This document shows, in pieces, positions 20,892 to 48,922 of a stretch of DNA of 64,000 nucleotides. The notes under the pieces are model-generated. The model was not told the origin of the DNA. It saw nothing but the letters and a program-made list of their open reading frames with translations, and did no database searches. The stretch is taken from positions 1 through 64,000 of the forward strand of contig LADP01000033.1 of NCBI GenBank assembly GCA_000961575.1. The letters run 5' to 3'. The stretch is from Peptococcaceae bacterium BRH_c8a (lineage in GTDB: Bacteria > Bacillota > Desulfotomaculia > Desulfotomaculales > Desulfallaceae). Each line of letters begins with the position of its first letter. The first letter of the stretch is position 1. A program made the position numbers and the translations under genes.

Positions 20892-21509
20892 TCAGGCGAT
20901 GGTGATTACCATGTGTGGTCCGTAGAGCCAGTTGTTTATTTCAAACATGTTGGAGATAGAACCGATTTTAAGTTTTTCTTTGGCCTTGTAATAGTCCAGG
21001 CAGGTGCCGCAAGAAAGTACGGTGGTGCCGGAAGTGTGCATTTTTTCCAATTGGCTTATGACATCGGATCCAGCACAGGTCAGAAAAACGCCGGTGTTAA
21101 GTAACAGCAGCGCTGCCGGTGGCGGCTCCATCTCCACCAGGGTGTTAAACAGGCTTTTTATGAGCACCTGGCCCAGGTCTGGGGAACCCTGCCCCAGGGA
21201 GTTGGTTGTAATCAAGTAAACCGGGCCCAACCCGGCAGGCCGTGCGGTTTCCGGTTTATGAACGCTATCTGTTTTTTGGGGCAGGGCCTCGCCCGGGTGG
21301 CTGATACTCAAATGAAATGCGCCTTCTGTCGCTTCTTCAGTCACCTCATAGCCTGCGTTCTTAGCGAACAAAGTGACATTCTGACGTGCAACATCGTTAT
21401 CAACTATCATAGTTATTGATGCGATACCTTTTTCTTCCATAGCTTTTTTAGTATTTATCACTGGCTGCGGGCAAGCCAGCCCACGGCAATCCACAGTTTT
21501 ATGAGTCAT
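20892..21509 (-). CDS. yedF: YedF-like selenium-metabolism protein
   Basis: 205 residues: an N-terminal TusA/SirA-like domain with the CPQP motif (DCRGLACPQPVINTKKAME) and a C-terminal DsrE/DsrF-like domain. This two-domain form is found next to selD in selenium-using bacteria and is thought to handle selenium or sulfur transfer. It lies 60 bases downstream of selD on the same strand, so it is probably co-transcribed. Confidence 0.9.
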   Translation of the reverse strand: MTHKTVDCRGLACPQPVINTKKAMEEKGIASITMIVDNDVARQNVTLFAKNAGYEVTEEATEGAFHLSISHPGEALPQKTDSVHKPETARPAGLGPVYLITTNSLGQGSPDLGQVLIKSLFNTLVEMEPPPAALLLLNTGVFLTCAGSDVISQLEKMHTSGTTVLSCGTCLDYYKAKEKLKIGSISNMFEINNWLYGPHMVITIA

Positions 21510-21569: not shown

Positions 21570-22631
21570 TCAATACCCGTCACCTGGCAGTACTCTGATT
21601 AATTTTTCTTCCCGGGGCAACACCCGGCCGATAATGGCGGCCTGGATGCCGGCTCTGGCCAACTCGCCGATCATTTTTTCTGCACCGGGTGCGGGGATGG
21701 ACACCAGCAGCCCGCCGGAGGTTTGCGGGTCATAGAGCAGCATCTGTTCCTCCGGTTTAAGCCTTTCGGCTACCTCAACCCGACCACGCAGGTGTTCCCT
21801 ATTGTCGTACGCCCCGCCAGGGATAAGGCCCATCCGGGCCATGTCCATGGTTTCGGGTAGCAGCGGCAGGGATGAGTAATCAATCTCCAGAATTACCCCG
21901 CTGGCACCGGCCATTTCGGAAGCGTGGCCCAAAAGCCCAAACCCGGTAATATCTGTGCAGGCATTGGCGCCATGTCGCAGCATGGCTTCGGAAGCTTTCC
22001 TGTTCAGGGCGGACATGCTTTGGCCAGCTTCACGTAAAGCCGCTTCCGATACCAGTTCCGCCTTAATGCCGGTAATGATGATACCCGTACCCAGCGGCTT
22101 GGTGAGCACCAGCAAGTCACCGGCTTTAGCGCCGGCGTTGGAAGTAATCTGTTCGGGCCGGGCCAACCCGGTTACGGTAAGACCGTACTTGGGCTCGGCA
22201 TCGCGCACTGTATGTCCGCCGGCAGTAATACCGCCCGCTTCCTGTACTTTCTCGGCGCCCCCTCGTAATATTTCTTCCAATACAGTATGAGGCAAACAGT
22301 CCGGGAAGCATACTATGTTTAGCGCCAAAAGCGGTTTGCCGCCCATGGCATAGATATCACTCAGCGCGTTAGCGGCGGCGATTTGGCCATACAGGTAGGG
22401 GTCGTCTACCATGGGTGTAAAAAAATCCACCGTTTGAATTAGTGCCTGGTCACCGTTTAACTTATAAACAGCGGCATCATCCGAGGTATCCAGGCCTACC
22501 ATCAGACGGGGGTCATTTGAAACGGGTATGTGTCGCAGTACCTGCGATAGGGTGTGGGGACCCACCTTGGAAGCTCACCCGGGAACCTGGGTCAGTCCAG
22601 TAAGTTTTACAATTTTTTTGGTATCAGACAT
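21570..22631 (-). CDS. selD: selenophosphate synthetase (selenoprotein form)
   Basis: Makes selenophosphate from selenide and ATP, the selenium donor for Sec-tRNA. The true start is ATG at 22631 behind GAGGG. Codon 19 is an in-frame UGA (22577-22575) in the context TQVPG-U-ASKVGPHTL, exactly the catalytic Cys/Sec position of SelD. The 353-residue product continues with GLDTSDDAAVYKL, GGKPLLALNIV and GGHTVRDAEPKYGLTVTG. Naive gene calling would start after the UGA and lose the active site. A hairpin (GGTGG/CCACACC type) directly follows the UGA. Confidence 0.95.
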
Positions 22632-22862
22632 GGAATACCCTCTTCTCTCTCTTTTCAATAGCATGTGCCAAATATTCAATTTTTACATTATTGTTTCCTT
22701 TATTGAGCTGATATAAGTTTTTTATGCAACTCCGGCAGTAAAAAAAGATTTTTATGTATTTCCATTTATGACCGAACATAAAGGTGTACTTCTTGAGCAA
22801 AAATATGATAAAATCTGAATGATTGTGTACAAGCCAGATTTTACAGAGGAGGAAACTTTATC

Positions 22863-23204
22863 ATGGAGCAACCATTTGAAGTGATTGTTTTTGGACTTAA
22901 CGCTCCGGCCGCCGTCTCTGGTTGAGGCCCGAGACCTTCCGCCGGGTGCGGAACAGAAAAAACCATGAAACAAGAGGCCGAAGAATTAGGTGCAACCCTG
23001 AAAGGTGATTTCGGGGACGACGTAACTATCAAGTTTGTGGACGTATCTACTGAGGACGTGAACCAGTACCCCAACATTGCGGCCATCCTGGGTAAGGTTA
23101 GGCTGCCGCTGACGGTAATTAACAATGAACCTCGTTTTCATGGCGGCATATCTGCCGACGTAATTACCAACGCCTTAAAAGAAATGCAGCAAAAGGAACA
23201 ATAA
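22863..23204 (+). CDS. small thioredoxin-fold selenoprotein (UGA at codon 21)
   Basis: The reading frame from ATG 22863 (SD AGGAGG, spacing about 11) runs to TAA 23204 through one in-frame TGA at 22923-22925, giving 113 residues. Layout: beta strand (FEVIVFG), loop with Sec21 and Cys29 (SGUGPRPSAGCG), helix, strand VTIKFVDV, then LPLTVIN with a likely cis-Pro, and a final helix, i.e. a thioredoxin/glutaredoxin fold. Coding character is equally good on both sides of the TGA, and selD-yedF are divergent neighbours. The fold resembles YuzD/DUF1462 disulfide proteins. Probable redox enzyme; substrate unknown. Without Sec, only 22965-23204 would be called. Confidence 0.85.
22923..22953 (+). promoter_or_regulatory. 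SECIS-like hairpin after UGA
   Basis: Starting at the UGA, the stem TTCCGC (22937-22942) pairs with GCGGAA (22948-22953) around the loop CGGGT. The loop lies 18-22 bases after the UGA and exposes G residues, the geometry expected for a bacterial SECIS bound by SelB. Confidence 0.7.
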
Positions 23205-23209
23205 GGAAA

Positions 23210-23360
23210 GGGGACACACCTCAGCTTAAAGTCAAGGCTTTGGGGTCGAGGAATGTCCCCAACGTATGAAAGGGGACACACCAAAGCGGAACGGGGACAC
23301 ACCTGCTGAAGCTTAGGTAATCCTCTGGGGACAGGAATGTCCCCAACGTGTGAAATATAA
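23210..23360. repeat. GGGGACA/TGTCCCC palindromic element cluster
   Basis: GGGGACACACC occurs at least twice and AATGTCCCCAACGT twice in about 150 bases, arranged as imperfect palindromes (for example GGGGACAGGAATGTCCCC). They resemble REP-like repeats linked to IS200-type transposases in other Firmicutes. No transposase is present here. Confidence 0.75.
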
Positions 23361-23434: not shown

Positions 23435-23719
23435 ATGGCCTGGAAGGATTTAAAAAACCGTTTTAAACGGCAATTCTCGGACTACCTGGAATTGCCCGGC
23501 GATATCATGCTTGATTTACCCAAGATTGTGCTGGTGGGTAACCTGCAGGTGTTTATTGAAAATCATCGTGGGATCCAGGAATATAACCCGCAGTTGGTCC
23601 GGGTCGTCGTAAACGACAAGATTGTAGAAGTCACCGGTGAGAGCCTGACTTTGCGCAATATTTTGCCTGATGAAATATGCGTGGAAGGTCAGATTAACTC
23701 CCTGTCTTTTTACAATTAA
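23435..23719 (+). CDS. yqfC: sporulation protein YqfC
   Basis: 94-residue YabP/YqfC family protein, needed for normal sporulation and made in the mother cell in Bacillus. It shows the family core LELPGDIMLDLPKIVLVGNLQVFIENHRGI and ends with a small beta fold. The ATG has an AAGGAGGGG SD and yqfD follows 17 bases later, the conserved pair. Confidence 0.93.
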   Translation: MAWKDLKNRFKRQFSDYLELPGDIMLDLPKIVLVGNLQVFIENHRGIQEYNPQLVRVVVNDKIVEVTGESLTLRNILPDEICVEGQINSLSFYN

Positions 23720-23736: not shown

Positions 23737-24999
23737 ATGCTGCTGTTTAGAATCCTGTCGCGCTTAGGCGGGTATGTTACTATAACGCTGCCCGAGGGGT
23801 GTCTGGAAAAATTCGTAAACCTGGCCGTTTCCCGGGGGGTATTCTTATGGGATATAACCGGCATAGGTACCGGTCGGGTAGCTATGAAAGTACGATTAAG
23901 CGGTGTACAAGCTCTACGTCACGTAGCCCGTATGACGAGCTGCCGGTTTAAAATAGTCGAGCGCCAAGGTCTGCCTTTCTTTGTTAGCCGGATGAAGAGA
24001 CGCCGGGCTATGACAGCAGGCGCTCTGATATTTGTGGCAGCATTGTACGTGTTGTCGTCCTTTGTCTGGTTTATCGAGGTCACCGGCAATAAGCTGGTAA
24101 CCGACCAGGCGGTAGAGCAGGTAGCCCGCCAGGCCGGCCTGAAATTGGGAGTGCCACGGTGGACGCTGGACGTAACTACTCTGGAGGAAACCATACTTGA
24201 CCAGGTACCGGGTTTGTCCTGGGTTGGTGTTTACGTTGAAGGCACCAGGGTATACATCAAGGTGGTGGAGAAAAAACTGCCGCCACCGGATGAAACCGGG
24301 CATCCGGTGGATGTGGTGGCTATCAAGGACGGACTGGTTAAACAGATACTGGTGCTAAGCGGGCATCCCGAGGTTAAAGAGGGAGATACGGTTACTTCTG
24401 GACAGGTGCTGATATCGGCTGCTATCCCGCCTCCGGTAACGGATGAAGAAAAAGAAACACCAGATGGGAACCGGGAAGACGCCCTGGAACCGGAAGTGCA
24501 ACAGCCGTTGCGTTATGTCCACGCCCGGGGGATCGTAAGAGCCAGGGTCTGGTACGAGGGCGTGGCTGATATGAGGCTAGTGGAAAATGGAGCCGAGATT
24601 ACCGGCCATGAGACTACCAGGTTTGGCATTAAATTCGGCAGTAAGGAAATAATTCTAATAGGGCCGCGCAAAATCCCCTTTGAACACTATGCAGTGCACG
24701 TTGAGGGTAAACGGGCACCTGTTTGGAGGAATATTGATGTGCCCGTCGAATTACTAACGGTGAGGTACTATGAGGAAAATCCTTACACCAAAAGTTACAC
24801 CAGGGATGAAGCCCGGCGCCTGGCCGGTCGGAAAGCTCTGGACAGCATTCGTGGGCAACTGCCCGAAGGTGCTAAAATAGTTGATGAGAGGCTGGAAGAA
24901 GTGGAAACACTCGACTCCGGTACCGTGCGAGTCAGAGCCGTGGTTGAGACACTTGAGGATATAGGCATTGATCAGCCCCACCAAAGTCTTGACTCATAA
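23737..24999 (+). CDS. yqfD: sporulation protein YqfD
   Basis: 420-residue membrane protein of the stage IV YqfD family, a partner of YqfC in the mother cell. It has a cytoplasmic N-terminal part, one membrane segment (about 89-108, LIFVAALYVLSSFVWFIEV), a FtsQ/POTRA-like segment (VTGNKLVTDQAVEQVARQAGL), and a large outer domain. ATG with an AGGAGG SD. The following 120-bp gap before phoH holds only AT-rich sequence. Confidence 0.93.
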   Translation: MLLFRILSRLGGYVTITLPEGCLEKFVNLAVSRGVFLWDITGIGTGRVAMKVRLSGVQALRHVARMTSCRFKIVERQGLPFFVSRMKRRRAMTAGALIFVAALYVLSSFVWFIEVTGNKLVTDQAVEQVARQAGLKLGVPRWTLDVTTLEETILDQVPGLSWVGVYVEGTRVYIKVVEKKLPPPDETGHPVDVVAIKDGLVKQILVLSGHPEVKEGDTVTSGQVLISAAIPPPVTDEEKETPDGNREDALEPEVQQPLRYVHARGIVRARVWYEGVADMRLVENGAEITGHETTRFGIKFGSKEIILIGPRKIPFEHYAVHVEGKRAPVWRNIDVPVELLTVRYYEENPYTKSYTRDEARRLAGRKALDSIRGQLPEGAKIVDERLEEVETLDSGTVRVRAVVETLEDIGIDQPHQSLDS

Positions 25000-31301: not shown

Positions 31302-31325
31302 ATAAACATAACTAAACAGCATTCT

Positions 31326-31426
31326 TCGTTAGGTGAGGCTACTGTACAGACACAGGCCACTGCCCGGAAATGTCGAGAGACAGTAACGGGTCAACTGATA
31401 TTACCGAAATAAGGTTTTATCTAACG
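31326..31426 (+). promoter_or_regulatory. M-box (ykoK) Mg2+ riboswitch aptamer
   Basis: The sequence matches the M-box core: CGTTAGGTGAGGCTAC at the 5' side, CTGCCCGGAAATGTCGAGAG, and a closing CTAACG that pairs with the first bases. M-box RNAs sense Mg2+ and turn off Mg2+ transporter genes. It lies upstream of corA and is followed by a terminator at 31510. Confidence 0.93.
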
Positions 31427-31509
31427 TGGCTGAGAAATTTTTATTTCTCTAGCTGTATTGAGCCAAAACTTGTACGAGTGAAGAAGGCGGATAATGGTCT
31501 GTTATTATT

Positions 31510-34869: not shown

Positions 34870-35130
34870 AATATAAAAGTATGCGATGAGGGAAAGAGTA
34901 TCCGGGTTAGTTTCGCCCAGAGAGCCGGCGGATGGTGCAAGCCGGTGGAATTGCCCGGTGAAAGGGGTTCCCGAGCCGCAGGAGGAACGCCGGTTTTAAT
35001 TTTAGCCGGTTAGTAAAGCCTGCACTTTTTAAAGTGGGCCGCCCGGTGTTGCCGGGGGTCAAACAGGGTGGAACCGCGGGAAATACCTCCCGTCCCTGGC
35101 TATAAGCCGGGCCGGGGGGTTTTTATATTT
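34870..35130 (+). promoter_or_regulatory. T-box leader of glyQS
   Basis: Contains the T-box core AGGGTGGAACCGCGGG (35065-35080), upstream stems, and a GC-rich terminator ending GCCGGGCCGGGGGGTTTTT at 35124. Uncharged tRNA-Gly should pair with the specifier loop and the TGGA bulge, melt the terminator and switch on glyQS. I could not place the Gly specifier codon with certainty. Confidence 0.93.
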
Positions 35131-48468: not shown

Positions 48469-48543
48469 TCCTCGATAGCTCAACGGTAGAGCATCCGGCT
48501 GTTAACCGGAGGGTTGCTGGTTCGAATCCAGCTCGGGGAGCCA
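48469..48543 (+). tRNA. tRNA-Asn (GTT)
   Basis: Full cloverleaf with encoded CCA; acceptor stem TCCTCGA/TCGGGGA; anticodon loop CTGTTAA; T arm GGTTCGAATCC. Confidence 0.97.
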
Positions 48544-48549
48544 ATCCTC

Positions 48550-48624
48550 GGGCCCATAGCTCAATGGTAGAGCATCCGGCTCATAACCGGCTGGTTCTAG
48601 GTTCGAATCCTAGTGGGCCCACCA
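48550..48624 (+). tRNA. tRNA with CAT anticodon (elongator Met, or Ile2)
   Basis: Acceptor GGGCCCA/TGGGCCC, anticodon loop CTCATAA, encoded CCA. It lacks the initiator hallmarks. CAT could be Met or lysidine-modified Ile2; Met is my preference. Confidence 0.93.
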
Positions 48625-48627
48625 CTT

Positions 48628-48757
48628 ATTCGAGGCTCGAAATTAGAGGTTCGAGGTTGGAAAAAATAAGTTCTAAAAAAAGATAAAAAAAGCTACAAAA
48701 AAAAGAGAAAATAAGTTATAATAGCCTTCGGGGTTCGAACTTCGAATATCGAACTAG
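48628..48757. repeat. TCGAA-rich repeat in the tRNA cluster
   Basis: Between tRNA-Met and tRNA-Glu lie TTCGAGGCTCGAAATTAGAG at the left and GGGTTCGAACTTCGAATATC at the right around an A-rich centre. They look like the ends of a small degenerate inverted repeat; no gene is present. Confidence 0.5.
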
Positions 48758-48768
48758 GACATCAAAAA

Positions 48769-48844
48769 GGCCCCATGGTCAAGTGGCCTAAGACACCGCC
48801 CTTTCACGGCGGTAACCCGGGTTCGAGTCCCGGTGGGGTCACCA
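48769..48844 (+). tRNA. tRNA-Glu (TTC)
   Basis: Acceptor GGCCCCA/TGGGGTC, anticodon loop CTTTCAC, encoded CCA. Confidence 0.97.
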
Positions 48845-48846
48845 AC

Positions 48847-48922
<76 letters not shown>

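Follow-up and report, generated by a model that had tools for sequence, protein, structure and literature searches.

The window analysed here, 64,000 nucleotides of contig LADP01000033.1 from Peptococcaceae bacterium BRH_c8a, contains a gene for a protein of 113 residues (22863–23204, + strand) in which, judging from homologous sequences, the UGA at codon 21 is almost certainly decoded as selenocysteine (Sec). It is near certain that the protein represents a new selenoprotein family of thioredoxin fold with an unusual arrangement of Sec and Cys and an unusual genomic context. Taken as a whole, the observations are on balance probably best explained by a selenoprotein that handles metalloids or selenium through soft ligands.

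A Reading Frame That Continues Through UGA

The gene opens with an ATG at 22863, 10 nt downstream of a Shine-Dalgarno sequence (AGGAGG, 22847–22852, + strand), and closes with a TAA at 23202–23204; a single in-frame TGA is located at 22923–22925. The product starts with MEQPFEVIVFGLNAPAAVSGUGPRPSAGCG... and contains Sec21 and Cys29 (codon TGC, 22947–22949), the latter likely being the partner of the former. Coordinates, Shine-Dalgarno sequence, single TGA and both residues had been given correctly in a preliminary description of this DNA. A scan of the intergenic region for sigma-70 promoters gave no match.

Could the UGA simply be a stop codon? An open reading frame of 79 residues opens at the downstream ATG 22965, where a shorter gene might start. 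However, protein-like conservation begins at the upstream start and continues across the UGA, and homologues with Cys at this site are open through it. In the 22 alignment columns before the TGA the 12 closest orthologues show 263, 163 and 558 changes at codon positions 1, 2 and 3, respectively, which indicates coding constraint because the changes fall mainly at third positions. A true stop is contradicted by the Cys homologues and by this codon pattern and is very improbable. An error of sequencing or assembly is even less credible; we see no point in its favor, and it is contradicted by the recurrence of the TGA in independent genomes, the identical TGA being present in 12 of the 12 closest orthologues, which come from separate assemblies. 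Moreover, a homologue search found exactly one TGA in every best match in all 16 genomes of the same taxonomic family, and its position is identical among the aligned translated homologues. The preliminary description had named two findings that would speak against the gene, homologues that begin only at ATG 22965 and a TGA that is a sequencing error; since conservation extends 5' of the TGA and independent genomes share this codon, neither applies. Its expectation of an aligned UGA in genomes of the Desulfotomaculum group was borne out, including the 16 genomes just mentioned, and so was that of Sec or Cys at position 21 of the homologues, where one or the other stands in all 31 diverse sequences of a broader alignment (A2). 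In the same alignment Pro82 (codon CCG, 23106–23108, + strand) and Gly94 are invariant and Cys29 is found in at least 90% of the rows. By these sequence comparisons the reading frame is far beyond chance.

Selenocysteine Machinery

The window genome (G000) encodes SelB, scoring over the cut-off, with an adjoining selA-like open reading frame (named by eye), a tRNA-Sec, likewise over the cut-off, and SelD. The tRNA-Sec occurs twice (L167 and L168), with identical sequence and flanks and both times near contig ends; the copies are probably one gene at an assembly overlap. Among 398 genomes drawn from the phylum, with counts tallied by hand, SelB was over the cut-off in all 36 genomes with a UGA form of the family as compared to 263 of the 398 overall, and 10 of the 36 genomes that have only non-UGA matches are without SelB (Fisher p 9e-4 against the UGA-form genomes). 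In these ten, most of which are very distant, the relatives that can be read through the N-terminus have no UGA at the site; G338 is unreadable there. Within the class almost every genome has both SelB and tRNA-Sec, so that co-occurrence tells nothing there and the contrast comes from the phylum. In the window genome SelB and tRNA-Sec would decode UGA codon 21, directed by a hairpin 17 nt downstream.

A SECIS-Like Hairpin Downstream of the UGA

This hairpin, UUCCGC-CGGGU-GCGGAA (22937–22953, + strand), follows from folding and from a model-fitted test across the family. It has a spacing of 17 nt from the UGA, a 6-bp stem and a 5-nt loop, CGGGU, with a G at loop position 2, and its energy is -7.0 kcal/mol bare and -7.7 kcal/mol within 24 nt. 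The bacterial SECIS model asks for a loop of 3–9 nt with a G in the first two positions, a stem of 4–16 bp, a spacing of 16–37 nt and an MFE <= -7.5 (PMC13188914). The hairpin fits this model with borderline energy, and the preliminary description, which had pointed to a hairpin with a CGGGT loop after the UGA, was right on this point. The Cys29 codon overlaps the structure, its first base being the last base of the loop and its other two lying in the 3' arm.

For the single gene the folding energy is unremarkable (z +0.19 for 53 nt from the UGA), and a comparison of 40-nt MFEs between Sec and Cys genes gave p 0.014 only. Much sharper was a test against the SECIS model in which real genes were compared with versions whose codons had been shuffled synonymously, chosen because the hairpin overlaps the codons of the conserved Ser-Ala-Gly-Cys-Gly, and in which hairpins were counted at -4 kcal/mol or better. 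Hairpins fitting the model were found in 40 of 55 Sec genes versus 12.8 expected and in 7 of 29 Cys genes versus 4.0 expected, an excess in the Sec genes beyond what the protein sequence explains and the SECIS support that had been predicted. In addition, in 34 genes picked for sharing one hairpin register, 74.8% of the cells pair as compared to at most 53.8% when the register is slid, and the covariation score is 0.271 versus at most 0.127, with compensatory pairs. Other clades, for example the ligA-linked one, use another register, and no hairpin of the model type was found in L019, L021, L025, L099 and one gene of L050. The hairpin thus stands out through comparison within the family and not through its energy in one sequence.

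Thioredoxin Fold and Relation to Known Families

A structure model built from the 31-row alignment (mean pLDDT 81; residues 18–28 around Sec of low confidence) has the order strand-helix-strand-helix-strand-strand-helix, that is, a thioredoxin fold, which the preliminary description had guessed. Sec21 and Cys29 (U-x7-C) are placed in the loop before helix 1, and the CxxC or UxxC that classical thioredoxins and glutaredoxins have at the start of helix 1 is absent from the window protein. Pro82, located just before strand 3 in the model, appears to correspond to the cis-proline of thioredoxins. Among the fold matches 1xg8, a protein of the DUF1462/YuzD family, ranks first (Z 10.9 over 100 residues), so the earlier suggestion that YuzD shares the fold was well founded; thioredoxins (Z 8–10) and ArsD (Z 8.4) follow.

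Does the protein belong to a family already described? The window protein matched nothing in Pfam (E <= 1) or NCBIfam, and for eight subgroup members examined in detail no Pfam or NCBIfam model reaches its cut-off (NCBIfam release June 2026). Among the 119 prokaryotic selenoprotein families and subfamilies of a 2026 list no entry is recognizable as this family, judged by the domain models, for the entries that have one, and by the listed Sec motifs (PMC13188914 Table 1), albeit a prior description by Haft and colleagues is possible. The accessible portions of the deep-Sep paper and of earlier papers name no such family.

For DUF1462/YuzD (PF07315), 1xg8 is the PDB entry that comes closest not only in fold but also in sequence (profile E 2.5e-5), and 12 of 31 family members match PF07315, the best with 4.9e-6. 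In contrast, the window protein does not match PF07315 at E <= 1 and has no CxxC. Known YuzD members have C-x2-C and are not known to contain Sec. Membership in YuzD was rejected as the defining Pfam match is absent for the window protein.

ArsD (NF033727; 3mwh, 3kgk) shares with the family the thioredoxin fold, a loop after strand 1 that carries chalcogen ligands and a CG motif before helix 1, and some paralogues of the family are encoded beside ArsA or Acr3 genes. However, ArsD has a vicinal CC where the family has a single Sec or Cys at position 21, and with its third Cys after strand 1 differs from the window protein, which has only Sec21 and Cys29; furthermore, the ArsD gene is part of the ars operon, whereas the window gene lies beside selD with no arsenic gene near. 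The window protein does not match NF033727, and one relative scores 15 of 90 bits. An hhalign comparison of the family with ArsD gave a weak match (E 1.4e-4, probability 53%) in which Cys29 aligns with the CG motif of ArsD. Only 8 of the 113 class genomes encode a true ArsD, and the window genome is not among them. Membership in ArsD was rejected on the score, the vicinal Cys pair and the ars operon alike.

Further families come close in one or the other respect. VcpD, an ArsD-related vicinal cysteine protein (NF047871), gives weak profile matches in 8 of 31 members (best E 2.5e-4), but one Cys form reaches 13.6 bits against a cut-off of 90 and the window protein does not match at all. The HUIPC motif thioredoxin-like (seleno)proteins (NF047660) and Sec.1/Sec.2 (PF13192) are likewise small selenoprotein families of thioredoxin fold with weak similarity to some family members, the NF047660 match examined in detail reaching 13.8 of 105 bits; the window protein matches neither, and their Sec motifs (UxxC, CxU, UxC) are unlike that of the family.

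A Large Family With Sec and Cys Forms

The clade of the window gene is only a small part of a family in which Cys forms are common; the preliminary description had recognized neither of these points nor the paralogues in arsenic operons. A profile search gave matches in 40 of the 113 class genomes and in 72 of the 398 genomes drawn from the phylum, the weakest of the latter being perhaps only thioredoxin-like, and no match to the window protein was found among plasmids or viral contigs. Relatives are present, among others, in Desulfoscipio geothermicus, Desulfallas, Desulfotruncus, Pelotomaculum terephthalicicum, Sporotomaculum syntrophicum, Syntrophaceticus schinkii and Desulforadius tongensis, and the window genome itself carries two more Sec paralogues. 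The 84 distinct sequences extracted comprise 55 Sec and 29 Cys forms. On a tree of 93 rows Sec and Cys interchanged at least 16 times, with at least 6 changes forced by strongly supported branches, a count to be taken as a guide as the tree rests on few columns. Such natural Sec/Cys pairs at one site provide material for asking whether Sec serves as ligand or as catalyst. A widespread selenoprotein family is added, with several Sec paralogues in some genomes, whose genes standard annotation would truncate.

Some members depart from the common pattern. One gene (L044, - strand, offset 7527) has two adjacent UGA codons (CSUUGPP) and lies beside an ArsP-like permease gene, and further members with two TGA codons occur in G090 and G091. 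A distant Cys-x4-Sec subgroup (NCxRxxUGPxQSQAET) was seen in other genomes of the phylum (L139, L146, L149, L150, L153); for the one member compared with NCBIfam nothing was over the cut-off. L029 contains tandem family genes, one with Sec (SLGGUCNGGW) and one with Cys (CGGCRGGW), of a divergent subgroup that is without the usual second Cys.

Gene Neighborhoods and Proposed Function

As the preliminary description stated, selD (21570–22631, - strand), for a selenide water dikinase with Sec at codon 19 (TGA 22577–22575), and yedF (20892–21509, - strand; TIGR03527), for a sulfurtransferase-like selenium metabolism protein, are located on the other strand, selD being divergent to the selenoprotein gene. 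Downstream follow two genes for sporulation proteins, yqfC (23435–23719, + strand), which is not part of the selenoprotein, and yqfD (23737–24999, + strand). This order is conserved in the clade of the window gene, which comprises 14 loci, all Sec, divergent to selD and upstream of yqfC-yqfD; some relatives share with the window the position of yedF beside selD. A second clade is located between ligA and gatC.

Another 65 family genes belong to neither the selD nor the ligA clade. For 27 of them an arsenic gene is found no more than 1.5 kb away (ArsP/SaoE-like permease 14, Acr3 12, ArsA 4, ArsM 3), and 12 of these 27 have arsR beside them; the name ArsP-like is tentative as SaoE and Cu/Zn efflux models matched below their cut-offs. 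At L115–L117 the gene order is ArsA, ArsA, family gene. Sec becomes linked with arsenic-resistance operons in this family. The other 38 genes have no recognized arsenic gene within this distance. The loops of the arsenic-linked members mostly contain four Cys/Sec (3–5), those of 13 of the 14 members of the selD clade two.

The 27 genes near arsenic genes suggest that the family handles metalloids in an ArsD-like manner. Briefly, Sec21 and Cys29, replacing the CxxC motif in the loop before helix 1, could quite plausibly form a site of soft ligands, at which a metalloid or a reduced selenium species is bound and from which it is subsequently handed over, in the way that ArsD handles As(III). In the clades of arsenic operons, with typically four loop Cys/Sec, the cargo would be As(III), destined for Acr3, ArsA or ArsP; in the all-Sec clade linked to selD it might be selenide or another chalcogen or metalloid species, which is the least certain step. 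The wider proposal of a large uncatalogued metalloid-handling family, which uses Sec as metal(loid) ligand and not as redox catalyst, often swaps it for Cys, and has devoted one all-Sec, selD-linked clade to selenium metabolism, is more tentative. Several observations stand against metalloid handling. The window clade lies outside arsenic operons and has only two loop ligands, its selD and yqfCD neighbors say nothing direct on the cargo, the 38 genes mentioned above have no arsenic gene nearby, and the sequence similarity to ArsD does not reach any curated cut-off. Moreover, the fold match of the model to plain thioredoxins equals or exceeds that to ArsD, the invariant Pro82 would be just as much at home in a redox thioredoxin, and the confidence of the model is low in the Sec loop.

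Alternatively, the proteins may be thioredoxin-like selenol/disulfide oxidoreductases, in which Sec21 attacks a disulfide or an oxidized species and Cys29 then resolves this as a selenenylsulfide, the arsenic-linked paralogues then being reductants for arsenic enzymes and not chaperones. The fold, the invariant proline before strand 3 and the two loop chalcogens in the 13 selD-clade members would be in keeping with such a role, as would the fact that most known selenoproteins of thioredoxin fold are thought to be redox-active (PMC13188914). However, CxxC and UxxC are lacking, the offset from Sec to Cys varies across the family from about 6 to 13 residues, and the arsenic-linked loops mostly hold 3–5 Cys/Sec, so that we consider a redox role possible but somewhat doubtful. 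An ArsD-like function is favored over it because of the gene neighborhoods, the loop composition, the fold and the weak ArsD profile match.

As a special case of soft-ligand handling, the selD-linked clade could act with YedF in supplying SelD with reduced selenium, carried for example as a perselenide by Sec21 or Cys29. The divergent selD is conserved throughout the clade and all members have Sec, and yedF adjoins selD in the window and some relatives. Yet the selenoprotein gene and selD are on opposite strands, the former being read toward yqfC-yqfD, the adjacency to selD may be positional inheritance, and most SelB-bearing genomes of the class do without the family, which makes such a relay unlikely. 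If true, it would bear on the open problem of selenium delivery to SelD.

One of the Sec paralogues of the window genome (L164, G000:C20:104500-113500) has GcvH-like, OsmC-like, lipoyl synthase-like, dihydrolipoamide dehydrogenase-like and Acr3-like neighbors (named in part by eye), and GcvH-like or LplA-like neighbors recur at L019, L025, L050, L058, L091, L099, L106 and L130. These neighborhoods are possibly a lipoate-linked arsenic or sulfur cluster.

Other Elements in the Window

In the window Rfam gave matches only to other elements, all of them ordinary (fragments of group II introns, an M-box riboswitch, a T-box leader and four clustered tRNAs, at 89–388, 31318–31489, 34877–35100 and 48469–48919). 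Between the selenoprotein gene and yqfC a short dispersed repeat, GGAATGTCCCCAACGT, close to which GGGGACACACC lies, is found at 23250–23264 and 23334–23348; it has 76 copies in the genome (<=2 mismatches) as compared to 1 for the reversed control pattern.
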